Source: Deltaproteobacteria bacterium RIFOXYA12_FULL_61_11
GTDB taxonomy: Bacteria; Bdellovibrionota_F; JAHFAK01; YA12-FULL-61-11
Reading direction: 5' to 3'
Assembly (NCBI GenBank): GCA_001799195.1
Contig: MGSU01000026.1
Coordinates: 151-19,294, forward strand
Length of the DNA stretch: 19,144 nt
Shown here: positions 2,599 to 16,575 of the stretch, piece after piece
Position numbering within the stretch: position 1 is the first letter of the stretch
Layout: every line of letters begins with the position of its first letter
Made by a program: the position numbers and the translations under genes
The notes under the pieces: generated by a model
What the model saw: only the letters and a program-made list of their open reading frames with translations
Databases searched by the model: none
Told to the model about the DNA's origin: nothing

Positions 2599-2743
2599 CT
2601 GCGGGGCGTGGTGGTAGTATGTTGAAATGCTTGATGCAATGTGCGTCAAGCGCCCGGCACGAAGTCTGCAGTCCAGAAATGAGGGAGAATCCACCCGCCG
2701 AGAGGTAGGGTGTCGGTCATCGAACAGTATGGGGGGTATACGT

Positions 2744-4585
2744 ATGAACCGTTTTCTCATCGCAGGGATGATCCTGGGCTTCTGTCTGGTCGGGTGCGTC
2801 GATGACGGCGACGACGGGCTCTACCAGCAACCCCAGCAGCCTCAACAGACTCAGACACAGCCACCGGTCCTCGACAGTGCCTGGTTCCAGCAGACCAGCA
2901 ATGCCGAGGTGACCTTCGACGCCGAGGGAATTCCCGAGCACGTCCTCGAGCGGCATCAGAGCGGAGCCATCAGCCAGCTCAACTCGCTGCAGGACCTGTT
3001 CGTCTTCGAGGCCGGGGAGATGGCCGCCGGAGAGTATGAGACCGGTGAACAAGTTCCCCTCAAGCTGGCCTTCGACGTCAAGAAGGCCTCGCACATCGGC
3101 GAGTACAACCTGATCATCTCCAACACCACGGGGAAACCGGTCATCGCCACGGTCGAGCCGATCTCGGGCGGGAAACCCTACGCCTTCGTCGACCTCAGCG
3201 CTCAAGGCTTCGGGGCGACCAGCGAGACCGCGCCGAGCATCTTCGATCTCGACCTCGGCGTCCCGGCCTCGGGGGACGATCCCATCCCGGTGATCCTCTT
3301 CGTCTGTCTGGACTCCAACGACAACGGTCGCTGCAACGACGAGCGGATCAAGAACCTGAACTTCTACATCAACCAAGTGCCCAACGATATCGTCGCGGAA
3401 CAAGAGATCAGCAGGGAACTCGAGCGCATCCTCTCGGCCGACCTGGCCACGGATACGGAGACGGAAAAGCTCCTCAAGGGTATTCCGAGCAACCGCGGCT
3501 TGGTGTATTACGCCCAGAACGCGATCCTCGATCCCATCAAAGGTAAGTTGATGGATTACAACACCTTCACCAAGCAGGTGGGGGCTGAATTCTCCCAGTT
3601 CGGCGGTTTCGCTCCCAAATACTTCCGCGAGGGCGAGGTCAGTGGTGATGCGCCGCTGGCGTCCGGGGCCTTCGCCAGCACCGAGGCCGTCGAGACCGTG
3701 TTCACCATGGTCGACGAGATGTTGCGCAGCGAGAATGCCGCGATCGGCTCCGAGATGGTCTCGGTGGAAACCGGGGCGCCCCTGGAGATCACCATTCCCC
3801 TCGTCCAGTACGAGGCGACCCTCTTCTCTGCTGCCCCGACCGCGGGCGATGAATTTGCCCCGGCCGATCCCACGGGCGGCGAGACCGGTGGCGAGACCGG
3901 TGAGCTCGAGACCGGCGGCGACGAGTTCGATGATGCGGTCGAGGTTGTAGGTCCGGGCACGGGCAGCACCTGTTCGGCGGTATGTACCTGTCTGGCGGAC
4001 GGAAGTATGAAATGCGTGGTGTCCGGTCCGGTGAACGCCAGCCAGATCGGGCGATGCCAGGAGGCCTGTGCCTGTAAGGCGGCCGGGCAGAGCGGCCTGG
4101 TCTGCGAGCGGGAACCGCGCATCACGGGTTGTTTCGTCGAGGGTACCCTCCTCCGCACCGGGGAACAGGCCATGACGCCGGTCGAGAAGCTGATGCCGAA
4201 AGACACCGTCCTCGATGCCAAGAACCGGCCTCGGCAGGTCCTCAGGGCTGTCGCCGGGCCCGAGAAGGAAAAGGTCTTGTACCTTACCACGGTGTCGGGT
4301 CAACGACTCGGCGTCTCCGAGGGCCATCCGATGATGACCGCCAGGGGGCTGATCCTCGCCCGCGAGCTGACCCCCGCGGACAAACTGCTGCGCGCGAACG
4401 GCACCTACAGCGAGTTGGCTGGCATCGAACGGGTGCTCTACACCAAACTCGTCTACAACATCGCCCTCGACGGAACAGAGAGCGAGGTCGAGACCCATTT
4501 GCTCCAGTCGAACGGTTTGATCACCGGGGATCTCGTGTTGCAGAACTCGTTGGCAAAACCAGCGGCGACGGCCTCGGTGCGCTGA
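2744..4585 (+). CDS. Lipoprotein with one eight-Cys module and C-terminal Hint domain (paralog 1)
   Basis: Predicted 613-residue lipoprotein. The open frame extends up to 2627, but ATG 2744 is chosen because a G-rich ribosome site (2731-2736) sits 7 bases upstream and translation from there gives a proper signal peptide with lipobox L15-V-G-C18, followed by acidic residues and a Gln/Pro linker. Residues 40-360 are a body shared with the next gene. It includes an EF-hand-like loop D190-x-N-x-N-G-x-C-x-D-E200 that probably binds calcium. Residues 370-405 are an acidic Gly/Thr/Glu linker. Residues 410-454 hold eight cysteines in two 'CxxxCxC...C' halves resembling VWC-type modules. Residues 463-601 are a Hint domain: G462-C463-F464 entry, an EGT turn, block-B-like S-E-G-H528, and H585 with a NGLITGD terminus. 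There is no terminal His-Asn and no downstream extein or toxin. By family knowledge Hint domains activate the Gly-Cys bond for cleavage or transfer. The identity of the acceptor is unknown. Confidence 0.87.
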   Translation: MNRFLIAGMILGFCLVGCVDDGDDGLYQQPQQPQQTQTQPPVLDSAWFQQTSNAEVTFDAEGIPEHVLERHQSGAISQLNSLQDLFVFEAGEMAAGEYETGEQVPLKLAFDVKKASHIGEYNLIISNTTGKPVIATVEPISGGKPYAFVDLSAQGFGATSETAPSIFDLDLGVPASGDDPIPVILFVCLDSNDNGRCNDERIKNLNFYINQVPNDIVAEQEISRELERILSADLATDTETEKLLKGIPSNRGLVYYAQNAILDPIKGKLMDYNTFTKQVGAEFSQFGGFAPKYFREGEVSGDAPLASGAFASTEAVETVFTMVDEMLRSENAAIGSEMVSVETGAPLEITIPLVQYEATLFSAAPTAGDEFAPADPTGGETGGETGELETGGDEFDDAVEVVGPGTGSTCSAVCTCLADGSMKCVVSGPVNASQIGRCQEACACKAAGQSGLVCEREPRITGCFVEGTLLRTGEQAMTPVEKLMPKDTVLDAKNRPRQVLRAVAGPEKEKVLYLTTVSGQRLGVSEGHPMMTARGLILARELTPADKLLRANGTYSELAGIERVLYTKLVYNIALDGTESEVETHLLQSNGLITGDLVLQNSLAKPAATASVR

Positions 4586-4711
4586 AAGAGCCGAGGAGCA
4601 CCGGTTCCAACCGGGAGTGGGTGAACAGTGGGAAGCCGAGGAGAGGCGATGCTCGGGCGAGCGTTGTCTCCCCCGTTGGAGAAGGGCAAGGCGTTCGAGG
4701 GGGTACAAGGC
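4586..4711 (+). other. Short spacer between the two Hint lipoprotein genes
   Basis: This 126-base spacer holds a small GCTCG-GG-CGAGC inverted repeat (4651-4662) and the G-rich ribosome site of the next gene (about 4697-4703). I see no terminator with a U-tract, so the two genes are probably co-transcribed. Confidence 0.4.
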
Positions 4712-7222
4712 ATGAACACGATGGGGAAGTTGGTTCTGGTGCTGCTCCTGGGAGCTTTCCTGGGATGTGTCGATGACGGTAACGACGAGCAGGTGGGGGC
4801 GCCGCTCACGCCCGTGGACCAGCAGCCGGTGCAGCAGCCGGTCGATCCGGGCCAACAGGTCCCGGTCCTGGATACCGACTGGTTCCAGGGCAACAACCAC
4901 GCCCAGACCACGGTCAACATCGACGATGTGCCGGATCACTTGCTCCAGCGCGCGGGCGCGGGGGGCATCATCAACCAGCTCAATTCCTATCAGGACCTGT
5001 TCCAGTTCCACGTCGGGGAGGGCGATGCCAATCTCTCGTCCTGGACCGAGGCCGAACGGATACCGCTGAACTTGGCTCTCAACTTCGACCAACGCTATCA
5101 CCTGGGTGAGTACAACCTGATGGTCGCCGAGCCCAGCACGCACCCGATCATCGCCACGATCGAACCCGTGGTCGGCGGCAAACCCTTCCTCTCCTATAAT
5201 CTCACCCAGAACGGGTTCTCCACCTCGACCCGGGAAGAGACCGCGGGAGTCGATCCTCGCTACCAAGCCCGCTTCGACCTCCCGGCCGGGGTGACCGACC
5301 CCCTGGCCGTGCTGCTCTTCGTCTGTCTGGATGCGAACGAGAACGGGCGGTGCAGCGACGAACGGGTGATGAACCTCAACTTCTACATCAACCAGATCGA
5401 TCCCACGATCAAGAACGAGGCCGAGGTCCAGCAGGCGCTCGACACGGTCATCACCACGGCCAACAAGACCTACTTCCTCCAGGCCGGAGAGGCTCCGGGA
5501 ACCGTGTACTACGCCTTCCGCGCCATCCTCGATCCTGCCCGTAAGTCATTGTTGAGTTACAAGGATTTCTTCGCCACCAAGGGGATGGCCCTGCCGTCGA
5601 ACCACAAGCCCGCGTTGCCCGGGGTCAAGTTCTTCACCCTGGCTCCCGAGGGAGGCGAGGAGGTCGACGGCGCGGTCGAAGAGGCCCTCGACTTCGTGGA
5701 CGAGATGTTGCGCTCTGAAGAAGCCCAGTTCGCCGGCGGTTCCGAGATGGCCCAGGTCGGCGCGGAAGCCGAGCCCATCGACATCGATCTGCCCGTGATC
5801 CAGTACCAACAAGCGCTCTCCAGTACCCTGGGGGACGACTTCGCCGAGGCCGCGTACGACGCCGAGGCCGTGGCCGCGGCTTTGGCCGCCGATCCCTTGC
5901 TCTCGGACGAGGACAGCCAGTTCTTCGCGGCCTTCCAGGCCGAGGCTCTCGTGGCAGCGGAAGGGGTTGCCTCCTGCCTCGAGATCTGCCGCTGCATGCC
6001 CGACGGCACCGTGGACTGTGCTACGCACGACATGACTCCCGCCGGGCTCTATGACAAGGTCTCGATCTGCAAACCCTGCCGTTGCGACGCAGGTGAGACC
6101 GGCCCGGTGCTGAACTGCGGTGAGAACGGCACCGAGATGATGGCCTATACTCCTCCGGTTCTGCCCGAACCGACCAGCGAACGCCTCTGCGGGCAAGCCT
6201 GCATCTGCATGCCCGACGGCGAGGTCGTTTGCGGCAAGACCCCGGCCGGGCATTACAACAAGACCGCGCGCTGTCTGGCCGAGACGAGCCCTACCTGTAC
6301 CTGCGACAGCGCGGGGTACGAGGATGCGGTGACATGCCCCGATGTCAAGGCCTACGAAATCGCCAAACCGCCGACGACGACCAATCCCGCGGCCCATTGC
6401 TCCACGGCCTGCCTGTGTGCTCCGGACGGAACCGTCGTATGCGCGCGGCCGCCGTCAGGCTTCGTCGATAAAACCACCGCGTGTAAGACCAACTGCAACT
6501 GTGTGGCTCCGGGTTCGGATGATGCCATTGCTTGCAGCCCTGATCCCTACGCTTTCGAGGTCATCATTCCCGAAGGGCCCATCGAGAACGTGCCCGGTAC
6601 CGTCATCCACTGCTCGCAGGTCTGCACCTGCCGGGTCGACGGGACCAAGGTCTGTGTGCCGGTTGTCGGCAAAGAGAGCTTGATCGTCAAGTGTGACAGC
6701 GACTGCGCTTGCAAGGCTCCCGGGAAGAGCGGACTCGAGTGCGATCGCGACCCGCGGGTCAACGGCTGTTTCACCGAGGGGACGATGATCCTGGTCGGTC
6801 CGGACAGCTACAAGCCGGTCGAGCAGCTCACCACCCGCGACACGGTGCAGGACAAGCAGGGGCGAACCCGCGCGATCAGTCGTATCGTCGACGGGCCGGA
6901 GAAGTATCGGGTGGTGGTGCTCACCACGGTCGCTGGGCAGACCCTCGGCGTCTCGGAGACCCATCCGGTGATGACCCGCGCCGGCCTGAAGATGGCCCGG
7001 GAATTGACCGTCCTGGACAGCCTCCTCCGCACCGACGGGACCTATGTCGAGCTGGCCGGGATCGAGCGCCAAGTGCCGACCGGCCACGTCTACAACTTTG
7101 TCCTTGCCGGTGAGGGAGAAGAGGTCATGGACCACCTGATCGTAGCCAACGGTTTGGTCACCGGTGACCTGACCGTCCAGCATCGCCTCGAACAGGGCAA
7201 GGCTGTGGCCGCGGGTCGCTGA
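4712..7222 (+). CDS. Lipoprotein with four eight-Cys modules and C-terminal Hint domain (paralog 2)
   Basis: Predicted 836-residue paralog of the preceding gene. The frame is open from 4628, but ATG 4712 follows a GAGGGGG ribosome site by 8 bases and begins a lipoprotein signal ending in F16-L-G-C19, a weaker lipobox than in paralog 1. ATG 4721 is an alternative start. The shared body includes 'PVLD(T/S)(D/A)WFQ', 'HLGEYNL', 'A-T-I-EP', and the EF-hand-like loop D207-x-N-x-N-G-x-C-x-D-E217. Residues 375-420 form an acidic Ala-rich linker. Four tandem eight-Cys modules follow (C422-C469, C493-C542, C563-C608, C634-C677), against one in paralog 1. The Hint domain starts at G685-C686-F687 with block B S-E-T-H751 and ends H808 plus NGLVTGD. 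The last Cys module stops only eight residues before the Hint Cys. As in paralog 1 no cargo follows. Likely role: a membrane-anchored, self-processing surface protein (inference). Confidence 0.87.
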   Translation: MNTMGKLVLVLLLGAFLGCVDDGNDEQVGAPLTPVDQQPVQQPVDPGQQVPVLDTDWFQGNNHAQTTVNIDDVPDHLLQRAGAGGIINQLNSYQDLFQFHVGEGDANLSSWTEAERIPLNLALNFDQRYHLGEYNLMVAEPSTHPIIATIEPVVGGKPFLSYNLTQNGFSTSTREETAGVDPRYQARFDLPAGVTDPLAVLLFVCLDANENGRCSDERVMNLNFYINQIDPTIKNEAEVQQALDTVITTANKTYFLQAGEAPGTVYYAFRAILDPARKSLLSYKDFFATKGMALPSNHKPALPGVKFFTLAPEGGEEVDGAVEEALDFVDEMLRSEEAQFAGGSEMAQVGAEAEPIDIDLPVIQYQQALSSTLGDDFAEAAYDAEAVAAALAADPLLSDEDSQFFAAFQAEALVAAEGVASCLEICRCMPDGTVDCATHDMTPAGLYDKVSICKPCRCDAGETGPVLNCGENGTEMMAYTPPVLPEPTSERLCGQACICMPDGEVVCGKTPAGHYNKTARCLAETSPTCTCDSAGYEDAVTCPDVKAYEIAKPPTTTNPAAHCSTACLCAPDGTVVCARPPSGFVDKTTACKTNCNCVAPGSDDAIACSPDPYAFEVIIPEGPIENVPGTVIHCSQVCTCRVDGTKVCVPVVGKESLIVKCDSDCACKAPGKSGLECDRDPRVNGCFTEGTMILVGPDSYKPVEQLTTRDTVQDKQGRTRAISRIVDGPEKYRVVVLTTVAGQTLGVSETHPVMTRAGLKMARELTVLDSLLRTDGTYVELAGIERQVPTGHVYNFVLAGEGEEVMDHLIVANGLVTGDLTVQHRLEQGKAVAAGR
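5975..6742 (+). repeat. Four tandem eight-cysteine protein modules
   Basis: Modules lie at 5975-6118, 6188-6337, 6398-6535 and 6611-6742. Each follows C-x3-C-x-C-x7-C-x(12-16)-C-x(2-7)-C-x-C-x(9-10)-C, with 'PDG(T/E)VVC'-like text in the first half. The single module in paralog 1 is at 3971-4105. The pattern resembles VWC/antistasin-type disulfide modules, but I cannot assign a named family. Confidence 0.75.
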
Positions 7223-7245: not shown

Positions 7246-8850
7246 CTACCCGCGCTGCTCCCTCGACTGCTCGAACGCTCGGGCCTCGACTTCGAAAGGT
7301 ATGGCGATACATGCCCCGGCCAGGTTCTTTCCCCCGAGGAGCCCTCTGAAGATGTGCAGGAGGTAGTGCGCGAAGACGCGGAGTTTCCCATAACGGTGGA
7401 ACTGGGCCAGGTGCAGGTATTCGTGCGTCGGGACCACGGCGGTCTTCGCGCCGGCGTAGAGGGTGCGGCCCCAGGTCAGGTAGGAGAGCCCCAGCTTCCG
7501 GGGCAGCCAATGTCCTTCGCAGAGGCGGAAGTCGCGGCCGGGGGTGAGGTCGAGGCGGTAGCCGCGCCACGAGAGAGGAGACCCGGCAACGTCCCAGGCT
7601 GGGCGCAGGTCTTTGTCGAAGCGCGCCGCGAGGTCGCTCGGGGGCAGGGCACAGAGACCGGGCCAGAGCCGTTCGCTTTCTGCGCGGCACAAGGGAAGCT
7701 CGCGGGCTGAAGCAAGGGTGGGGGCGACATCGTGGACCACGCAGCGGTTCACGGCATGGCGGCAGGGGCGACGCATCCTCTCCCAGATCAGGGGCAGGGG
7801 TTCTTCGGTCAGGTTGCCGAACCCGAGCTTGAGCAGTTCGCACGGCAAGACGTTGCCTCGGGCGTCGATGTAGAGCTTCTGCCCGGCGGTCGCGGTGCAG
7901 CCGAACTTGTCGGGTTCCTCGTTGTACCAGGGCATCGCGATGGAGATAGGCCGCCTCGAGGCGTTCTGCCGGCGGTAGAAGTCGATGAGCACCTCTTTCG
8001 TCTGACCGTCGAGAGCGAAGTCGCTCGGGCTTTCCGTCGCCCTCCCGACAGGGCGGATCTCGTTGAGCTGGATGGAGTGGCCGCCGAGACGCTCGGCGAG
8101 GTCGACCACGGCGAAGACGTCCCCGTTCGCGACCGTGCTCCGGGTCACACAGCAGACCACCGAGACGTAGAAGCCGAGTTTTCTGGCAAGGGTGATCGTC
8201 TCGCACGCCGAGGCAAATGCCCGGGTATTCCCACGCCGGCGGTTGTGTTCGGCTTCCAGATGGTGGTCGAGGCTCACGTAGATACCTTGGAGTCCGGCCG
8301 TGTGCAGCCGCCGCAGGCGTTCCTCGCTCGCCCCCACCCCGGAGGTGAATATTCGGGTTTCCATGGAAGGAGTTGCGGCTTCGACGAGGGTGACGAGGTC
8401 GTCGAAACGCTGGAAGGGCTCTCCTCCGACGAAGAAGAGCAAGGGGACGCCGAAGCCGGAAAGATCCTCGACCGCCCGGAGCAGCAGCGGCAAGGGCAGG
8501 TCCCCGGACTGCAGGTTCACGACGTGACAGTGGACGCAGCGACAGGGACAGAGGTTGGTGACGGCGAGCTGGCCGTAGATCGGTTGGTGTGGATAGGTCC
8601 TCCGACAGTTGTTTTCGAGCGCGAGGTTGAAGGCCGGACCCGGTACGGAGGGCGCGAAGGGATCGAGAAAAATCTGTCCGCCCGCGCGAACGTACTTGGC
8701 GTTCTTGAACTTTGCAGCAATGGCGAACTGCTTGCGCAGGGCAGCGCTAACCTCGAGAGGGGAACGCTTGCCCGACAGCAGCATCCCCGCGTTGCCGGCC
8801 AGGATCGAGGCGCTCACGGCCGCCCTGAGGAGATACTGGGTCCAGTGCAT
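7246..8850 (-). CDS. Radical SAM/SPASM-like protein fused to a C-terminal HExxH domain
   Basis: Predicted 534-residue protein. The ATG has GGAG five bases upstream. The N-terminus (about 5-28) is hydrophobic and may associate with the membrane. Residues 95-270 form a radical SAM core with the [4Fe-4S] motif C101-x3-C105-x2-C108 and a GGEP motif (142-145) typical of S-adenosylmethionine binding. Residues 318-370 carry further cysteines (C318, C337, C363, C370) around 'DARGNVLPCE', as in SPASM or twitch regions that hold auxiliary clusters. Residues 440-530 form a separate domain with H476-E-Y-L-H480 and a downstream 'FEVEA' (519-523), matching the zinc-ligand layout of DUF4157-like HExxH domains. 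Substrate unknown; possibly peptide or lipid modification. Last gene of the five-gene minus-strand operon, 25 bases after the acyltransferase. It ends 23 bases from the convergent Hint paralog 2. Confidence 0.85.
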   Translation of the reverse strand: MHWTQYLLRAAVSASILAGNAGMLLSGKRSPLEVSAALRKQFAIAAKFKNAKYVRAGGQIFLDPFAPSVPGPAFNLALENNCRRTYPHQPIYGQLAVTNLCPCRCVHCHVVNLQSGDLPLPLLLRAVEDLSGFGVPLLFFVGGEPFQRFDDLVTLVEAATPSMETRIFTSGVGASEERLRRLHTAGLQGIYVSLDHHLEAEHNRRRGNTRAFASACETITLARKLGFYVSVVCCVTRSTVANGDVFAVVDLAERLGGHSIQLNEIRPVGRATESPSDFALDGQTKEVLIDFYRRQNASRRPISIAMPWYNEEPDKFGCTATAGQKLYIDARGNVLPCELLKLGFGNLTEEPLPLIWERMRRPCRHAVNRCVVHDVAPTLASARELPLCRAESERLWPGLCALPPSDLAARFDKDLRPAWDVAGSPLSWRGYRLDLTPGRDFRLCEGHWLPRKLGLSYLTWGRTLYAGAKTAVVPTHEYLHLAQFHRYGKLRVFAHYLLHIFRGLLGGKNLAGACIAIPFEVEARAFEQSREQRG

Positions 8851-8875
8851 CAGCGCTCCGGGGTGGTGGGTCTCG

Positions 8876-9655
8876 TCACGAGGTTCTCCCGTCCTTCGGG
8901 GAGCAAGCCTCGGGGTTCGGCAGGGGTTCTCCGCGATGGAGCTGCCGGTGCAAGCAGAGATAGGCTTCCCGGACCGAGGCCTTCAGCTCCTCGAGGTCCT
9001 CGAGGCTCTGTCCGGCGGTTGGCCAGGGCTCGAGCTGGTGGACGGTCACGGTGCAAGGCCGTACCGCATGTCCCTTCCATGCGTTATCCTCGTGGGGAAT
9101 ATGGAAGTAGAGCGGTTGGAGGGGCACCCCGAGGGAGAGGGCGAGATGGAAGGCACCCCGATTGAACGGGCCGAGCTTCCCGTCGACCACGCGGGTGCCC
9201 TCCGGAGTGAGGAGGACCGATTCTCCGGTGGCGCGCAGCGTGCGCATGGCCTTCTTGAAGCAGGCCATGCGCTGGGCAGGACGGTCTTGGGGGGGGATGT
9301 GGAAGGTGCCCAGGAGCAGGGCGACCGCGGTGATGGGGAGGTATTTCAGGGTCCTGGTCGAGAGGAAGAAGCGGGTATCTGGCAACGCCAGCGCGCACAG
9401 GACGAAGAGGTCCACGGTGGAGCTGTGGTTGACCAGGTACACCACTTGGCCCGGGGGAGGCCGAAGGCGGTGGGCCTCGACCTTGACGCCGGCCAGGGCG
9501 AGGATGAGTTTCGCGGTCGGTTTCACGAGCAGGTCGCGGCGCAGTCGCCGCGCCGTCCGGGCGGGCAGCACGGCCAAGGGGAGGCACAAGAGGGCACAGA
9601 GGGTCTGCAGCAGGAGGACCGCCCCGAGGAAGAGACCGAGTCGAAACGACTTCAT
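8876..9655 (-). CDS. 1-acyl-glycerol-3-phosphate acyltransferase family (PlsC-like)
   Basis: Predicted 259-residue membrane acyltransferase, a normal size for the family. An N-terminal hydrophobic segment (about 6-30) precedes the catalytic motif N76-H77-S-S-T-V-D82 (HxxxxD) and the glycerol-phosphate-binding motif P151-E-G-T-R155, followed by FNRGAF. PlsC enzymes transfer an acyl chain from acyl-CoA or acyl-ACP to the sn-2 hydroxyl of lysophosphatidate at the inner membrane. The start lies four bases after the methyltransferase stop, with no strong ribosome site of its own, which suggests translational coupling. Given the neighbours (CarS-like, UbiA-like and dikinase), it may be a pathway-specific acyltransferase for an unusual glycerolipid rather than the housekeeping PlsC. 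That is inference. Confidence 0.9.
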   Translation of the reverse strand: MKSFRLGLFLGAVLLLQTLCALLCLPLAVLPARTARRLRRDLLVKPTAKLILALAGVKVEAHRLRPPPGQVVYLVNHSSTVDLFVLCALALPDTRFFLSTRTLKYLPITAVALLLGTFHIPPQDRPAQRMACFKKAMRTLRATGESVLLTPEGTRVVDGKLGPFNRGAFHLALSLGVPLQPLYFHIPHEDNAWKGHAVRPCTVTVHQLEPWPTAGQSLEDLEELKASVREAYLCLHRQLHRGEPLPNPEACSPKDGRTS

Positions 9656-9659
9656 AGTG

Positions 9660-10619
9660 TTAGCCGCGTGTTTCGCACACGGCGAGCTGCATTGCGACGT
9701 TGGCCTTTGCGAGGACCTTCATCAGGGGATAGGTCGCGAGCTGGCCGAGGAAATACGGCCCGACCATGGAGCGGAGGTCGAGGCCCTTCCCGCGGAGCAG
9801 CGAGAAGGCGCAGCCGGTGAAGAAGTAGAAATAGATGGGGAAGGACCCGTGACAGCGGTAGTCGAGGAGGGTGAGCCCCGCTCGGTCGACCAGGGCGCGG
9901 AGGGAGCGTTCCGTCAAGAGCATGGTGTGTTGCGGGGCCTGGAGGCCCGGCCAATGGGAACCGAAGAGTTTCCCGGTCAAGCTGTCGAGCCGGGGGACCT
10001 CGAGGAGCAGCCGACCTCCCTGGCGTAGCAGCGAACCCGCGGTTTTCAGCGAACGCAGGGGGTCGTAGCAATGTTCGAGAAAGTGCCACATGGTGATCAG
10101 GTCGAAGGTGAGGCCTTGGAAATCTTGCTCGTAGAACAATCCGGGATGGAAGTGCAGGCGGTCGAACCCGGGGAAGTGCGAGAGATCCTTGAAATCGACC
10201 CCGTGGACGGCACAACCGCAGCGGTCGTGGAGACTGAGGAGGAAACTGCCCACGGCACAGCCCACGTCGAGTACCCGGGAGGTCGGACCGAGCTGGGCGT
10301 AGTGTTGCGCGAGGCGTACCTTTGCTCGGTCCTGGGCCCCCATCGCGTGCCGGACGAGCGGGGTCAACGGCCCGAGGTTCTCGCTGGTCTTCCGGTGCGA
10401 AACGTAGTTGTCATCGTAGAACTCCTTCACCTCCTCGAGGGTGAGCCGGGGATTCTGGTAGACGAGGCCGCACTGCTTGCAGGTAACGAAGCGGAAGAGC
10501 CCGGGTTTTCCGGTGTAGTGGTCGCCGACGCGGAGGAAGTCCTCGGTATCATCGGCGCCGCAGAGGTAGCACGAGACGTACTCGTGGCAGTAAGGGAGGT
10601 GATCCATCGGTTGTTGCAT
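9660..10619 (-). CDS. Zinc-ribbon class I SAM-dependent methyltransferase
   Basis: Predicted 319-residue methyltransferase. The frame is open much further upstream, but ATG 10619 is chosen because GGAGG (10628-10632) lies 8 bases before it and the upstream residues are Pro/Arg-rich non-protein-like text. The N-terminus carries a zinc-ribbon-type pair, C17-x2-C20 and C47-x2-C50, with 'C-x-x-C-G-L-V-Y-Q-N-P', as in Methyltransf_23-type enzymes that act on sugars or lipids. Motif I is V116-L-D-V-G-C-A-V-G-S-F126, and 'WHFLEHC' is the usual post-II motif. A hydrophobic C-terminal third ('YFYFFTGCAFSLL') may contact the membrane. The substrate is unknown; context suggests a lipid head group or chain. 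Confidence 0.86.
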   Translation of the reverse strand: MQQPMDHLPYCHEYVSCYLCGADDTEDFLRVGDHYTGKPGLFRFVTCKQCGLVYQNPRLTLEEVKEFYDDNYVSHRKTSENLGPLTPLVRHAMGAQDRAKVRLAQHYAQLGPTSRVLDVGCAVGSFLLSLHDRCGCAVHGVDFKDLSHFPGFDRLHFHPGLFYEQDFQGLTFDLITMWHFLEHCYDPLRSLKTAGSLLRQGGRLLLEVPRLDSLTGKLFGSHWPGLQAPQHTMLLTERSLRALVDRAGLTLLDYRCHGSFPIYFYFFTGCAFSLLRGKGLDLRSMVGPYFLGQLATYPLMKVLAKANVAMQLAVCETRG

Positions 10620-10636
10620 ATCCGTTGCCTCCGTCA

Positions 10637-10653
10637 CCGGAGCAGGGCTCCGG
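10637..10653 (-). promoter_or_regulatory. Perfect hairpin between UbiA-like and methyltransferase genes
   Basis: CCGGAGC (10637-10643) and GCTCCGG (10647-10653) form a 7-bp stem with a three-base loop, just upstream of the methyltransferase ribosome site on the minus strand. The same 101-base gap has a second 10-bp palindrome, ACCGATCGGT (10685-10694). It may tune expression within the operon or mark an RNA processing site. No U-tract follows, so it is not an obvious terminator. Confidence 0.45.
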
Positions 10654-10720
10654 AGGAGTCTTGTAGGCTCCGAGGACCGTAGCGACCGATCGGTTGAATG
10701 GCAAGCGAGTTCCGAGGAGG

Positions 10721-11398
10721 TCAGAGAACCCCGGCGAGGTTCGCGAGCAAACCGAGGAGGAGGAGGAGCAGGGTGAGGCACCAGCAGAAGGTCAGGAGAG
10801 GCGCGGCCTGCCGGTACCTCGTATCGTGGAGGAACTCGTAGAGGAGGGTGACGCTGAGCACGGCCGGGAGGATCGGGGCGAGCCGGCTTCCCGAACCCTC
10901 CCCGGAACAGAGGGAGAGCGCGAGGACTAGGCCGGGGTACTTGCAGTGGAGGCAAAGCGCGGCGGCGTGGATCGACGAGAGCTTCCGGCGCAGCCGAGTG
11001 TACCAGGCGTGGAGCAGCGCGGTGAGCAGCAAGCCGCCGAGCAGGGGGACGAGACTACTCTGGAGCAGGCTCGCTCCGATCCAGGAACACAGAAGGAGGA
11101 GGTGGGAGATCCTCAGATACGCTCTCGGGTTGGCGCTGCGGCCCAGGACGCGGTCCGGGGTGCGCAGGCGGTCGAGCTCGACGTCGTGATAGTCGTCGAG
11201 GATGCGGAGGCCGAGCAAGGGAAGGAGCAGGACGAGGGTCAGCGTCAGGGTGGAGGATAGCGACAGCTCCCCCTTGCGGCCGAGTTCCACGGCGAGCGAG
11301 AGCAACAGGCTCAGCGGGAGGAAGACGGCCGGGGAGAAGCGCTCCCGGAGATAGGCCTGGAGTTCTTGCTTACCAACGAACCATGCCGCGCCCACCAT
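10721..11398 (-). CDS. Short UbiA-like prenyltransferase, integral membrane
   Basis: Predicted 225-residue polytopic membrane protein. The first Asp-rich motif D68-D-Y-H-D72-V-E-L-D76, followed by R-x-x-x-P-D82-R, matches the diphosphate/Mg-binding site of UbiA prenyltransferases, which join an isoprenyl diphosphate to an aromatic, glycerol-phosphate or other acceptor. Several strongly hydrophobic helices follow. It is shorter than usual (family about 280-300), and the second Asp-rich motif is not evident: the corresponding region reads L-H-D-T-R-Y-R, so activity may be altered. ATG 11398 overlaps the dikinase gene by 29 bases and has GAGG very close to it; GTG 11395 is possible with better spacing. 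The longer open frame to 11494 lies inside the dikinase coding region. Overlap indicates coupled translation. Confidence 0.72.
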   Translation of the reverse strand: MVGAAWFVGKQELQAYLRERFSPAVFLPLSLLLSLAVELGRKGELSLSSTLTLTLVLLLPLLGLRILDDYHDVELDRLRTPDRVLGRSANPRAYLRISHLLLLCSWIGASLLQSSLVPLLGGLLLTALLHAWYTRLRRKLSSIHAAALCLHCKYPGLVLALSLCSGEGSGSRLAPILPAVLSVTLLYEFLHDTRYRQAAPLLTFCWCLTLLLLLLGLLANLAGVL

Positions 11399-13982
11399 CC
11401 ACCTCGACGATGCTGCCCGGAGGGATGCGGGCGAAGCAACCAGCCGCGCCCACGACCGCGGGTATCCCGAACTCCCTGGCCACGATGGCGCCATGGGACA
11501 ACATGCCGCCGTGCTCGATCACCAGCCCTGCCAGGACCGGGAACAGGGTGGTCCATCCCGGGTCGGTCTGCCTGGTCACCAGGATGTCCCCCGGCTCCAG
11601 GGTCATCGCTTCACGGAGGTCTCGCACCACCTTGGCTCTGCCCCTGGCGAGGCCCGCGCTTGCGCCGATCCCCAGGAGTACCCGTCCTTCGGCTTCGGCG
11701 GCTTCGTCAGAGGGGTCGATTGGGTCTCCGGCTGGTGTAGTCGCGGGCAGGGTAGCGCCCTGTTCGAGCCAGAAGAGTTCGGGCGGTTCCCGCTCTGCCC
11801 ACGAGGAGGCCTGGCGTTGTCGCTCGCGGACGGTCTCCTGGACCAACTCGGGGAACTGGGCCGTCCCCTCGAGCAGAGCCCTGGCTTCTCGGTAAGACAA
11901 CCAGAAGAGGTCGTTGGGGGCACGGAGGCTGCCGAGCAGGACCTGCTGCCGCCCGAGGGCGAGAAGGACCTGACGGAAGGAGTGGTATAACCTCGCCTGG
12001 GCCGTGCGGGCTCGCTCTCGCCAGCGGATTGCGGCCATGGCTCCGCGATGGAGCAAGGCGAAGACCCAGCGCTCTGCCCTCCCGAGCAGGCCGCCCTCCT
12101 TCATGAGGGCTCTGCGCACGTCTTCGGTGTAGGACCTTCGCCGCTCGGCGAGTTCGAACATCCGGATACTCGGCCGGGTGGGCTTGGTCTGCAGATACGT
12201 CCGCAGCAGACCGGCGACGAGTTCGGGGCGCTCGGAAAAACTCGGGGTGGTGAGCATCAATTCTTCCGAGCCTCTGAAACCCCAGGTCGCGAGGTAGCGT
12301 TGGAACTCGGCCGCGAGGTCTTTCGCCTCGGGCCTCGTCTCCAACAGGGTCAGAAAAGTCCCTGCGTCCTCCAAGCAGGCTGCAGACAGTTCCGGCACCG
12401 AGCGGAGTTTCTCGGCCAGGACCCAGAGCGCCTCGCTGGGTTCCAGACTGACGAGCTCTCCGACCCCGAGCAAGAGCCGATTGACCTCGCTCTCCTTCGC
12501 CTGATCGGGGAAACGGGAGGCGAGGAACCCCTTGAGCAGGCCGTAGAAGATCATGGCCGCGGCGTCGGCCAAGGCGGGTTTTCTCCACTCGTGGAACCGG
12601 AGACGAAGGAATTGATTGTAGAGTTTCAATAGATTGGCATCGCAAGGGGCTGGGCGGTTCGGGGAGGTCACGGCCAGCACTTCTCCGGCATAGGCGGCGA
12701 TGATTGCTTCGGTCTTGGTCAGCCAGGAAGGGAAACGCACCAAGGCCGAGCCTAGCTTGTACATCGCGGTAAGCATCTCGGAGAGGGAGAGGCGTTTCGC
12801 CGGGGCTTCCCCTCGGGGCAGAGCCTCTGCTCCGCGAGCGCCGACGAACGAGGTGAAATAGGAACACAAACGGCTCCCGTAGGGGGCGCAGTGCAAGATC
12901 GCGTGGATGTTGCTGAGGTTGTAGTACAGGCGGCCTTGGTGAGCGCCGACCACGGCGGTCAGGAAAGGTTCCAGGCAAGCCCTGCGCTGCTCCGAGAGCC
13001 CAAAGCTCACGGCAAGGTTCCGGAAGTACCACTCATAGGCTTCCAGGGCGATGGAATAGAGCATCGGCGAGAGCGGGTGGGGGTAGTTCTCTTTGAGGTT
13101 GACGTTGGTCCAGCAGACGCGGTTCGCACCCGGCAAGGTGGTGATGGGGCGGGCCTGCAACAGGTAGAGGGTTCCTGCGGCGTCGACCAACCACTCGAGG
13201 TCCTGGGGAGCCCCGAAGCGTTGTTCGAGTTCGAGCCCCAGGGCCGCGAGTTGCTCGAGAGGTAGCTCATGTTCCTCGGGAAGGGGTTTGCCGAGACCTC
13301 CGAGCGGAACCCATTGTCTTCGCTCCCGCCGATAGCGGTAGCGCAAGGGGTCGATCGAGCCCTCGACGACCCCTTGACAGGATCCGAGGGTACCTTCGAG
13401 CAGCATGTCCTTGGAGGTCGAGATCGCCCGGGGATCGACCGTGAACAAGACGCCGGCCACGTCGGCCTGGAGGTACTCCTGGAGGATCAAGGCCAGGCCG
13501 TGGAGGTCCTTCTTCCTCGCCCGGCAGTATGTCCACAAGTGCTCGGAGGAGAGGGCCTCGAGAGCGGCCCGCAGGGCCTCGCTCACGGCCTGCACCGTGG
13601 GCTCGCACTGCACCGAAAGGAGCTGGCCGGCGAAACTCACCCCTGCTCCGTCCTCGCCGAGAGCCGAACTCCTGAGGATCACCCGGGGAGCAGCGAGGAA
13701 CTGGAGCGCGCGTTCCAGGGAGGCGAGCAGGGAGGTGGGGAGGCGAAGGGGTTCCGGGTTCTTTCCTCCGGCAGAGGGGGGGGGGCCAGACGCCACTCTG
13801 CAAAGACCTGGATTGGTGTCGCGGAGGCTCAGGATCGCGGGCGTCGGCAGGACGAAGCCCCTCGGGACCTTGTAGCCCGCTTCGACCAGTTGTCCCAGGC
13901 GTTGGGCCTTCGCGCCGACGAGGGTGTCCGGGTAGGTCCGGTCCAGGGGGAGCAAAATGGGAATCGCGCTAGTGCTCAGCAT
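11370..13982 (-). CDS. PEP synthase-like dikinase / PEP-utilizing phosphotransferase
   Basis: Predicted 870-residue three-domain phosphotransferase. The N-terminal ATP-grasp (PPDK_N) part spans about 20-285: G-x-K-A-x-x-L-G (23-30), G-Y-K-V-P-x-G-F (36-43), R104-S-S-A-L-G-E-D with S-F-A-G (116-119), and the closing 'QDLEW...LLQARPI'. The middle domain contains 'NLKENYPHPLSP', as in rifampin-phosphotransferase-like proteins. The C-terminal swivelling His domain ends with 'GGMLSH830GAIVAREFGIPAV', where H830 should be the phospho-carrier. Family members use ATP to phosphorylate pyruvate, rifampin hydroxyls or other acceptors, releasing AMP and phosphate. No C-terminal pyruvate-binding TIM barrel is present, so this is not a true PEP synthase; an alcohol acceptor is more likely (inference). 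ATG 13982 is chosen because upstream residues are low-complexity and unrelated. Its ribosome site is weak. First gene of the operon. Confidence 0.85.
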   Translation of the reverse strand: MLSTSAIPILLPLDRTYPDTLVGAKAQRLGQLVEAGYKVPRGFVLPTPAILSLRDTNPGLCRVASGPPPSAGGKNPEPLRLPTSLLASLERALQFLAAPRVILRSSALGEDGAGVSFAGQLLSVQCEPTVQAVSEALRAALEALSSEHLWTYCRARKKDLHGLALILQEYLQADVAGVLFTVDPRAISTSKDMLLEGTLGSCQGVVEGSIDPLRYRYRRERRQWVPLGGLGKPLPEEHELPLEQLAALGLELEQRFGAPQDLEWLVDAAGTLYLLQARPITTLPGANRVCWTNVNLKENYPHPLSPMLYSIALEAYEWYFRNLAVSFGLSEQRRACLEPFLTAVVGAHQGRLYYNLSNIHAILHCAPYGSRLCSYFTSFVGARGAEALPRGEAPAKRLSLSEMLTAMYKLGSALVRFPSWLTKTEAIIAAYAGEVLAVTSPNRPAPCDANLLKLYNQFLRLRFHEWRKPALADAAAMIFYGLLKGFLASRFPDQAKESEVNRLLLGVGELVSLEPSEALWVLAEKLRSVPELSAACLEDAGTFLTLLETRPEAKDLAAEFQRYLATWGFRGSEELMLTTPSFSERPELVAGLLRTYLQTKPTRPSIRMFELAERRRSYTEDVRRALMKEGGLLGRAERWVFALLHRGAMAAIRWRERARTAQARLYHSFRQVLLALGRQQVLLGSLRAPNDLFWLSYREARALLEGTAQFPELVQETVRERQRQASSWAEREPPELFWLEQGATLPATTPAGDPIDPSDEAAEAEGRVLLGIGASAGLARGRAKVVRDLREAMTLEPGDILVTRQTDPGWTTLFPVLAGLVIEHGGMLSHGAIVAREFGIPAVVGAAGCFARIPPGSIVEVDGGRGMVRW

Positions 13983-14071
13983 GGGTGTACTCGTGAAGAA
14001 TGTGCCGGCACGGTAGCGTCTCGGGGGCCCTCGAGCAAGAAGTTCCACGCATTGTTCATGGATACGTGGGG

Positions 14072-14182
14072 ATGGAGGATCCTCGGAGGCTTGACGCTCA
14101 CCGGTCTCTTCGATATCGATGCATACCAACAGCGTTGCTGCGGAGCAACGCACGGCGAGCGATGGAGAATCCTCGAAGACCC
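14072..14182. repeat. Near-identical 18-base direct repeats in the divergent intergenic region
   Basis: GATGGAGGATCCTCGGA (from 14071) and GATGGAGAATCCTCGAA (from 14161) differ at two positions and are 90 bases apart. The first contains the perfect palindrome GAGGATCCTC (14075-14084). They lie beside the CarS-like gene start, between divergent genes, and might be binding sites. Alternatively they could be a small local duplication. Confidence 0.35.
14132..14151 (+). promoter_or_regulatory. Perfect 8-bp hairpin upstream of the CarS-like gene
   Basis: GCGTTGCT (14132-14139), loop GCGG, AGCAACGC (14144-14151). It ends ten bases before the chosen start codon, so it would sit at or over the ribosome-binding region if transcribed. 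It may be an operator shared by the divergent operons, a translational control hairpin, or a REP-like element. Confidence 0.5.
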
Positions 14183-14773
14183 ATGTTCCCCTCCCGAGAA
14201 GAGTTGCACCTCATCGCCTTCCTGCTCGGGGCCTTCGTCCTCGGGGGCATCGCCCAGACCCTCTGGTTCCGCAGCCCCTCCTGCCGGTTGTTCGCCTATC
14301 CCCTCGATGGGGGGAGGACCCTGCGAGGGCGGAGGATTTTTGGCGACAACAAGACCGTGGCGGGCTTCCTGGTCTTCGTACCCGTGGTCTCCGGCTCGTT
14401 CGCGTTGCTCGGTTGGTTGACCGAACTCCAGGGGCTCGATTTCCTCTCCCGGGTGGGGTGGCCGGAACAGCCCTTGTCCCTGTTCTTCATCGGGCTCGCG
14501 GGTTCGTTTGGGTACATGCTCGCGGAACTGCCGAACTCGATGATAAAACGACAATTTTCTGTCGAACCTGGGGCGAGGCCTACCGGGTGGCTCCGCTACG
14601 TGACCTTCGCGATGGATCAAGGCGACTCGGTCCTCGGCGCGCTCCTCCTGCTCCATCTCGCCGCCCCCCTGCCTCGAACGACCTGGTTCTCCCTCCTCGT
14701 CCTGGCGGCCGTGGTCCATTGGCTCTTCAACGTCGTGCTCTATCTCCTGGGTGTGAAGTCCAAGCCGTGCTGA
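14162..14773 (+). CDS. CarS-family CTP transferase (CDP-archaeol synthase-like)
   Basis: Predicted 203-residue polytopic membrane protein. The segment at about 48-69 (L-D-G-G, then R-R-I-F-G-D-N-K-T and A-G-F), the 'E-L-P-N-S-x-I-K-R-Q' stretch and the later 'D-Q-G-D-S-V-L-G-A-L' match the CarS/DUF46 family. These transfer CMP from CTP to a phosphatidate-like lipid, giving the CDP-activated intermediate for head-group attachment. Archaeal members use unsaturated archaetidic acid; bacterial homologs exist but their lipid is less clear. The start is uncertain: 14162 is chosen, 14183 would remove seven residues, and the open frame continues to 14000. None has a strong ribosome site. It diverges from the dikinase operon with a shared short promoter region, which suggests co-regulation. 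Confidence 0.82.
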   Translation: MENPRRPMFPSREELHLIAFLLGAFVLGGIAQTLWFRSPSCRLFAYPLDGGRTLRGRRIFGDNKTVAGFLVFVPVVSGSFALLGWLTELQGLDFLSRVGWPEQPLSLFFIGLAGSFGYMLAELPNSMIKRQFSVEPGARPTGWLRYVTFAMDQGDSVLGALLLLHLAAPLPRTTWFSLLVLAAVVHWLFNVVLYLLGVKSKPC

Positions 14774-16230: not shown

Positions 16231-16255
16231 TCGCGATGGATCGAGATCGCCGTCC

Positions 16256-16345
16256 GGAGAGATGACCGAGTGGTTGAAGGTGCACGACTGGAAATCGTGT
16301 GTATGCTCAAAAGGTGTACCGAGGGTTCGAATCCCTCTCTCTCCG
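16256..16345 (+). tRNA. tRNA-Ser (anticodon GGA)
   Basis: The acceptor arm GGAGAGA (16256-16262) pairs with TCTCTCC (16338-16344), with discriminator G16345. The anticodon stem CACGA/TCGTG encloses CTGGAAA, with anticodon GGA at 16290-16292. A long variable arm (about 16300-16320) marks class II (Ser) and the T arm is GAGGG-TTCGAAT-CCCTC. The CCA end is not encoded. It lies just upstream of the SRP RNA. Confidence 0.95.
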
Positions 16346-16436
16346 TGGCCTCGCCGCTCCGAAGCGGCCTGTTCACGGAGAGTGGGAGCGCGGACCTTCG
16401 CACGGCCGGTGCGGGGATCGAACAGAGAAGGATAAG

Positions 16437-16532
16437 AGAGCCAGACCCCAGGCAATAGGCTGCCGCGCACCCCGTCAGATCCGGAAGGAAGCAGCGGACG
16501 CGGTGGGTCTATGTGCCTGGCAAGTCTGGCTT
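16437..16532 (+). ncRNA. ffs: Small bacterial signal recognition particle RNA (4.5S type)
   Basis: The apical loop text GTCAGATCCGGAAGGAAGCA (16473-16492) is the conserved SRP domain IV that binds Ffh. The helix closes with AGCCAGAC (16439-16446) against GTCTGGCT (16524-16531), and CCAGGC (16448-16453) against GCCTGG (16515-16520). Length is about 96 bases, with no Alu domain. The closing stem runs into TTTT (16531-16534), so it may also end transcription. It lies between tRNA-Ser and dnaX, an order I know from several bacterial groups. Confidence 0.92.
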
Positions 16533-16575
16533 TTCTTCACTCCGACGGTGCGCCGAGGACGGAGGACGGTTTGTC

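Follow-up and report, generated by a model that had tools for sequence, protein, structure and literature searches.

A conserved bacterial gene set of CarS, dikinase and UbiA-fold enzyme as a candidate pathway for an unusual glycerolipid

Archaeal phospholipids are assembled by geranylgeranylglyceryl phosphate (GGGP) synthase, the UbiA-type digeranylgeranylglyceryl phosphate (DGGGP) synthase, CarS, archaetidylserine synthase and a decarboxylase. FCB-group bacteria that carry archaeal lipid genes possess GGGP and DGGGP synthases and lack CarS (Villanueva et al., PMC7852524). In the myxobacterial elb operon, which lacks CarS, dikinase, UbiA and methyltransferase, the epimerase-like ElbA and ElbE, the HAD protein ElbB and ElbC, whose role is unknown, accompany the multidomain ElbD, where reductase, acyl-CoA synthetase, acyl carrier protein (ACP) and acyltransferase are joined in one protein (PMC9131029). 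A recent survey of bacterial ether-lipid genes screened Mss, Ger, ElbD and Agps, and for some ether-lipid bacteria, for example Acidobacteria, it is not yet clear which enzymes form this bond (PMC11868695). Here, a gene set not included in that survey was analysed in a 19,144-nucleotide stretch of DNA, hereafter the window, from Deltaproteobacteria bacterium RIFOXYA12_FULL_61_11. A CarS-like gene on the plus strand diverges from a minus-strand operon that reads, in order, dikinase, UbiA-like protein, methyltransferase, PlsC-family acyltransferase and radical S-adenosylmethionine (SAM)/SPASM protein. A first-pass annotation had proposed these six families as a possible dedicated route to an unusual glycerolipid. 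All six were located where it had placed them, five by Pfam matches and the UbiA-like protein by motif, profile and model, and the divergence of the CarS-like gene from the dikinase operon is borne out by the coordinates. It is highly probable that the locus is a dedicated operon for an unusual glycerolipid. Full-text searches of the open-access literature, which leave most subscription papers and preprints outside, returned no description of this gene combination.

The likeness to the archaeal pathway lies in the UbiA-fold transferase and CarS, to which relatives of the locus add an archaetidylserine-synthase-like transferase and a phosphatidylserine (PS) decarboxylase. The differences are the lack of GGGP synthase, the presence of PlsC and dikinases, a fatty-acid-derived alcohol supply in the relatives, and the bacterial hosts. 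FCB-group bacteria likewise hold archaeal-type lipid enzymes in bacterial cells, whereas here CarS, a UbiA-fold enzyme and dikinases occur without GGGP synthase. The elb operon had been suggested as a natural comparison, and as a homologous system it does not stand, since its gene content differs. The window shares with it only the type of acyltransferase, encoded as a stand-alone PlsC with no ElbD-type multidomain protein, and neither an ElbB HAD phosphohydrolase nor an ElbA/ElbE epimerase-family protein, as defined in PMC9131029, is found among the window genes. Many relatives do, however, carry an adjoining set of ElbD-like activities (fatty-acid-activating enzyme, ACP and acyl reductase) as separate proteins. 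The anaerobic ether-lipid reductase PlsA/Ger has the same proposed outcome, an ether lipid, through a different enzyme.

The gene set recurs, with its order mostly preserved, in at least five phyla of bacteria. A species-level collection of about 85,000 genomes was scanned once with a three-sequence CarS alignment, and the 80 loci returned (L057-L136), ranked by similarity to the window CarS, were then searched with the other window proteins. UbiA and dikinase accompany CarS in nearly all of these loci. A dikinase of the window family is present in 78 of the 80, as against just 4 of 98 genomes (E<=1e-30) in a whole-genome sample, so that the association goes beyond chance. Twenty-two loci, termed type I, belong to Planctomycetota, Myxococcota, Acidobacteriota, Gemmatimonadota, Pseudomonadota and unplaced metagenome-assembled genomes (MAGs); two of them, L060 and L071, lie on short contigs. 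Their usual order, on one strand, is carS > dikinase > UbiA > methyltransferase > plsC, with plsC on the opposite strand in three planctomycete loci and not found in a fourth, L070. In the window, carS and the dikinase gene diverge across about 180-200 bp, whereas carS is codirectional in most relatives. Identities to the window proteins are 28-49% for CarS (80 bacterial relatives), 36-46% for PlsC and 44-55% for the methyltransferase (both in type I loci), the methyltransferase values across phyla being 45-54%. Over 14 non-redundant type I loci, the distances of CarS, dikinase and PlsC correlate pairwise (r 0.52-0.74, permutation p <=0.002), dikinase and methyltransferase give r 0.50, and most pairs among the four proteins fall at r 0.46-0.74 (p <= 0.006), the CarS-methyltransferase correlation being weaker (r 0.25, p 0.08). 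This is as expected if the unit were inherited or transferred together. Type II loci, mostly from Clostridia with the addition of Geothrix and Massilia atriviolacea, contain CarS and one or two dikinases, usually with a CDP-alcohol phosphatidyltransferase, a PS decarboxylase, a GNAT-like protein and a UbiA that Pfam recognises. Some hold, in addition, a DagK-type kinase or an AMP-binding enzyme. In type III, from Paenibacillus, dikinase > UbiA > CarS lie beside a fusion of HMG-CoA reductase and kinase. Single-protein scans with dikinase and CarS, together with alignment scans, found no relatives in viral contigs.

The expected co-occurrence of all six genes was thus borne out for CarS, dikinase, UbiA, methyltransferase and PlsC, which recur jointly, and failed for the radical SAM protein, which has no homologue in any of the 80 loci and which the earlier proposal had counted among the pathway steps. 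Its gene is operonic by position. Other genomes hold homologues (about 30% identity) that lie apart from every other window gene, and the protein's candidacy as a core member was rejected. Because it is absent from all related clusters, the protein is probably accessory. Its C-terminal 144 aa remain without a Pfam match up to E 10; the pattern HEYLHLAQF...FEVEARAF in this domain (7246-7680, minus strand) looks metallopeptidase-like by eye. Two further observations concern individual loci. A type II operon (L129) lies in a MAG labelled Candidatus Saccharibacteria, by transfer or binning error, and in Roseburia inulinivorans DSM 16841 the dikinase (L106, 12991-15109) is split into three pieces in the assembly, which may reflect a disrupted gene or a sequencing error.

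The window dikinase possesses ATP-grasp, substrate and phospho-histidine domains, and no phosphoenolpyruvate (PEP) barrel domain was reported in the Pfam search, as anticipated from the first description of a dikinase without the pyruvate-binding barrel. This architecture, with its conserved His, is that of rifampin phosphotransferase (RPH), and the closest solved structures are RPH-type (5fbs, 5hv1). Residues K25, R104, E263, Q276, R278 and H830 (window numbering) are conserved in every dikinase clade and would be expected to serve ATP binding and phosphoryl transfer. In the tree, the protein falls within a type I clade of 100% support, its exact neighbour being uncertain owing to a long branch, and it groups with the UbiA-linked dik2/type I side, not with dik1. 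A paralogue in the same genome (C243, L008) was considered as a cluster member and rejected, as its position in the tree is with dik1 and no cluster gene adjoins it. RPH and PigC/RedH have in common with the window dikinase the ATP-grasp and phospho-histidine domains without PEP barrel and the retained catalytic residues, but the window dikinase belongs to a clade of its own inside lipid operons. Matches to the RedH, PigC and Rph models raise the alternative that the enzyme is PigC/RedH-like or an antibiotic phosphotransferase and that the operon yields a lipid-linked small molecule, not a membrane lipid. The fatty-acyl-AMP ligase and ACP-reductase of the relatives recall modules of the nonribosomal peptide and polyketide synthase type, and the fold of the methyltransferase resembles that of antibiotic-sugar C-methyltransferases (MtmC, KijD1, TcaB9). 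However, all three dikinase scores are far under the curated cut-offs (RedH 247 against 1350 bits, Rph 211 against 999 bits), and CarS, Pss, Psd, DagK and PlsC all belong to glycerophospholipid metabolism. A secondary metabolite is accordingly regarded as quite unlikely.

For the UbiA-like protein, no Pfam match was obtained. Its residues R65, D68, D69, D72, D76, K153 and P155 are invariant in 20 type I sequences (alignment A3), and hhalign comparison of the type I profile with the Pfam-recognised type II UbiA of Clostridia gave a probability of 96% (E 1.3e-9). The best PDB match of the type II profile is archaeal DGGGP synthase (E 5e-4); the PDB search with the type I (group A) alignment gave no match. 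Modelled with AlphaFold (pLDDT 89.8), the window protein has archaeal DGGGP synthase 6m31 as its first Foldseek match (prob 1.00, E 0.019), with none at E 0.001, and the structural matches comprise 6m31, 4od5, 4tq4 and 8j8j. A second aligner puts UbiA homologues first (Z 12.6-13.1), polyprenyl synthases, which have the same helical bundle, being nearly equal. The NCBIfam model for GGGP geranylgeranyltransferase scores 18 bits. With the helical fold and the DDxxDxxxD-type Mg-diphosphate motif of the superfamily both present, the protein is taken, on modelling and alignment, as a UbiA-fold enzyme whose Mg-diphosphate motif is intact.

The window CarS scores 47 bits with PF01864 (cut-off 22) and 64 bits against the NCBIfam equivalog, whose cut-off of 148 is not reached. 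Its family profile matched a single PDB chain, CDP-archaeol synthase 5guf (E 3.9e-13). An ordinary CdsA is encoded elsewhere in the source genome, and the CarS-like protein is therefore an extra, dedicated enzyme. This bears on the view that the locus duplicates the ordinary diacyl phospholipid genes, in which case the UbiA-like protein and dikinase have unrelated roles. Diacyl lipids are possible substrates for PlsC, CarS, Pss and Psd, but CdsA is already in the genome, CarS is constantly accompanied by UbiA and dikinase in nearly all loci, and dedicated kinases and a reductase would have no reason, all of which makes a diacyl set improbable. The draft source genome (4.64 Mb) is 87% complete, and only one relative of its class is among the sampled genomes. 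Within it, PF01884 had no match, which extends to the genome the earlier observation that no GGGP synthase is in the window. The best match of the source genome to NAD_binding_4 (C118) was rejected as an ACP-reductase-kinase, being a stand-alone short-chain dehydrogenase/reductase among housekeeping genes. Separately, a tandem BcrAD_BadFG and DUF2229 protein, cut at the end of contig C7 (L159), is possibly a PlsA/Ger-type ether-lipid enzyme or a 2-hydroxyacyl-CoA dehydratase activator.

The neighbouring genes in the relatives strengthen the lipid reading through an archaetidylserine-synthase-like CDP-alcohol phosphatidyltransferase, a PS decarboxylase, a DagK-type kinase, a fatty-acyl-AMP ligase and a thioester reductase. 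A fatty acid desaturase gene is present in 21 of the 22 type I loci, usually immediately 5' of carS, a fatty-acyl-AMP ligase in 14, and a fusion of NAD_binding_4 reductase with an APH-type kinase in 15. The ligase of L058 matches FAAL-type models, the reductase of L069 exceeds the thioester-reductase cut-off (278 vs 213 bits), and an N-terminal ACP was found on the reductase-kinase fusions examined (L058, L064, L069). The kinase motif H[NGH]D[FV]NPRN...YDWEL of the type I fusions is shared by the HMG-CoA-reductase fusions of Paenibacillus (HNDFNPRN...YDWEL), as though one kinase had been fused to two unrelated alcohol-forming reductases. For the L058 and L085 CDP-alcohol transferases, archaetidylserine synthase models outscore bacterial PssA, yet remain under their curated cut-offs. 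A further locus without a dikinase, L083 (MAG Dive96_bin1.51, 7683-13799), holds an exosortase-family gene, an alpha/beta hydrolase, CarS-like and UbiA-like genes and an MMPL/RND exporter in a row, which possibly points to a part of such lipids in export or in the anchoring of proteins. The lipid might then serve protein sorting as an anchor, in the manner of the archaetidyl lipids of archaeosortase systems; the exosortase-family gene (PF09721 1.6e-7) lies shortly before CarS-UbiA, and one of the archaetidylserine synthase models in NCBIfam is assigned to protein sorting. Such a role is very improbable, as that gene has no homologue in any other locus and no sortase gene was recognised in the window.

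CarS, the UbiA-like protein and the CDP-alcohol transferase each best resemble archaeal counterparts, which would make them consecutive steps of an archaeal-type pathway, and the fatty-acyl-AMP ligase and ACP-thioester reductase-kinase fusion of the relatives point to fatty-alcohol-type chemistry. The full mechanism proposed from these sequences, to which we assign a probability of about 0.45, would be an undescribed and widespread glycerophospholipid route of archaeal logic, most likely ether-linked, with chains from non-archaeal enzymes. Families, active-site residues, gene order and neighbours are read directly from the sequences, and the substrates, the two-step phosphorylation with its order, and the ether bond are inferred. 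Firstly, an acid would be activated and reduced to an alcohol by the fatty-acyl-AMP ligase and ACP-thioester reductase of the relatives. The alcohol would then be phosphorylated by the reductase-fused APH-type kinase, a DagK-type kinase or a first dikinase, depending on lineage, and the core dikinase (dik2/type I) would raise the monophosphate to the diphosphate. In the 47 type II loci, 28 have only dik1, 16 only DagK and three neither; the two never co-occur, which suggests that a dikinase may replace a lipid kinase, dik1 then acting as one. In plants, phytol is salvaged to phytyl diphosphate by two successive kinases and then used by a UbiA enzyme. Subsequently, the DDxxDxxxD Mg-diphosphate site would allow the UbiA-fold enzyme to move the chain to glycerol phosphate and plausibly to create the ether bond, PlsC would acylate the remaining position, and CarS would make the CDP-lipid. 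In the relatives, the head group would come from the archaetidylserine-synthase-like transferase and PS decarboxylase, and tailoring of chain or head may be carried out by the desaturase (in relatives) and the methyltransferase. In its most specific form, non-isoprenoid ether phospholipids would arise in many phyla by a separate oxygen-independent route, in which RPH-type dikinases yield an alkyl or alkenyl diphosphate that UbiA joins to glycerol phosphate; this version is put forward only tentatively. Such a fatty-alcohol diphosphate route, perhaps one chance in three, would combine archaeal chemistry with bacterial chains and be distinct from AGPS, ElbD and PlsA/Ger.

Several points weigh against this mechanism. 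The usual donors of UbiA enzymes are allylic diphosphates, and to use a saturated alkyl diphosphate the enzyme would have to work by another chemistry. Beside the window locus there is no gene for a reductase, a fatty-acyl-AMP ligase or head-group addition, and neither a fatty acid desaturase nor a close ACP-reductase-kinase was found in the source genome, so that its version of the pathway may differ from that of the relatives. The DagK-type kinase could act on diacylglycerol, as DgkA, and not on a chain alcohol. Its exchange with dik1 (Fisher p 6e-10) occupies one branch of the dik2 tree, and the p value overstates the exclusivity, because the swap is a single tree event and not many independent ones. 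Finally, the HMG-CoA reductase of Paenibacillus could indicate isoprenoids instead. In an isoprenoid version, UbiA would take an ordinary prenyl diphosphate as donor and glycerol phosphate as acceptor, the product being a hybrid isoprenyl-ether/acyl-ester phospholipid, and the dikinase would phosphorylate glycerol or prenol. This would agree with UbiA family chemistry, the resemblance to DGGGP synthase and CarS, and the Paenibacillus fusion, and it is kept alive because a 2-alkenyl or isoprenyl chain would be an easier UbiA substrate than a saturated alkyl chain. Nevertheless, it appears unlikely: GGGP synthase is absent from the source genome search and from the annotated neighbours of related loci, most type I loci encode the ligase and the thioester reductase, which indicates fatty chains, and PlsC adds acyl chains.

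Regarding the remaining proteins and the gene map (Table 1), a methyltransferase profile searched against 386 genomes found no cluster-type member elsewhere, only weaker relatives (<=195 vs 498 bits), of which the four best have no cluster gene adjoining. PlsC matches TIGR00530 at 4.7e-15, under the model cut-off. The dikinase probably starts at 13982, giving 870 aa, and corrected starts place the methyltransferase at 10619 and the UbiA-like protein at about 11398, where it overlaps the dikinase end by 29 bp. Gaps of 4 bp (methyltransferase-plsC) and 25 bp (plsC-radical SAM) follow. The source contig, of 19.3 kb, lies almost wholly within the window. Beside the operon, two big secreted-looking proteins are encoded in tandem (2627-4585 and 4628-7222, plus strand), which towards their C-termini show weak similarity to Hint/intein domains (E 0.13-0.15 for the intein-containing RtcB model); the first has a Hint_2 match at E 0.039 and the second many Cys-rich repeats. 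A tRNA-Ser(GGA), followed by a bacterial small signal recognition particle RNA, lies at 16255-16534 (plus strand), with a dnaX-like gene next.

Table 1. Features of the window and the related Paenibacillus fusion.
Feature	Coordinates	Strand	Evidence or remark
CarS-like CTP:lipid-phosphate cytidylyltransferase (CDP-archaeol synthase family)	14183..14773	+	PF01864 3.7e-12; alternative start 14162
Divergent intergenic region between the dikinase and CarS starts, presumed shared promoter region	13983..14182	.	sequence
Dikinase, rifampin-phosphotransferase architecture	11370..13982	-	PF01326 4.9e-30, PF00391 2.3e-23
UbiA-fold membrane transferase, DDxxDxxxD diphosphate/Mg motif	10721..11398	-	alignment, hhalign, AlphaFold model, fold matches
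SAM methyltransferase, N-terminal CxxC..CxxC zinc-type domain	9660..10619	-	PF13489 4.3e-23
PlsC-family acyltransferase, NHxxxxD and PEGTR motifs	8876..9655	-	PF01553 1.9e-16
Radical SAM/SPASM protein, HEYLH-containing C-terminal domain	7246..8850	-	PF04055 1.1e-12, PF13186 2.2e-5
HMG-CoA reductase with APH/ecdysteroid-kinase-like domain	L076 10640-13489 (Paenibacillus)	-	catalytic motif match to type I fusions

The pairing of CarS and an archaeal-like UbiA with fatty-chain enzymes in one conserved operon bears on the open questions of bacterial ether-lipid synthesis and of the origin of the bacterial-archaeal "lipid divide". Because the operon is present in the culturable Polyangium fumosum, Massilia glaciei, Paenibacillus and Ruminococcus flavefaciens, the question is directly testable. 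If the proposal is true, a role in lipid metabolism would be given to the RPH/PEP-synthase-like "dikinases", which are usually annotated as phosphoenolpyruvate synthase.

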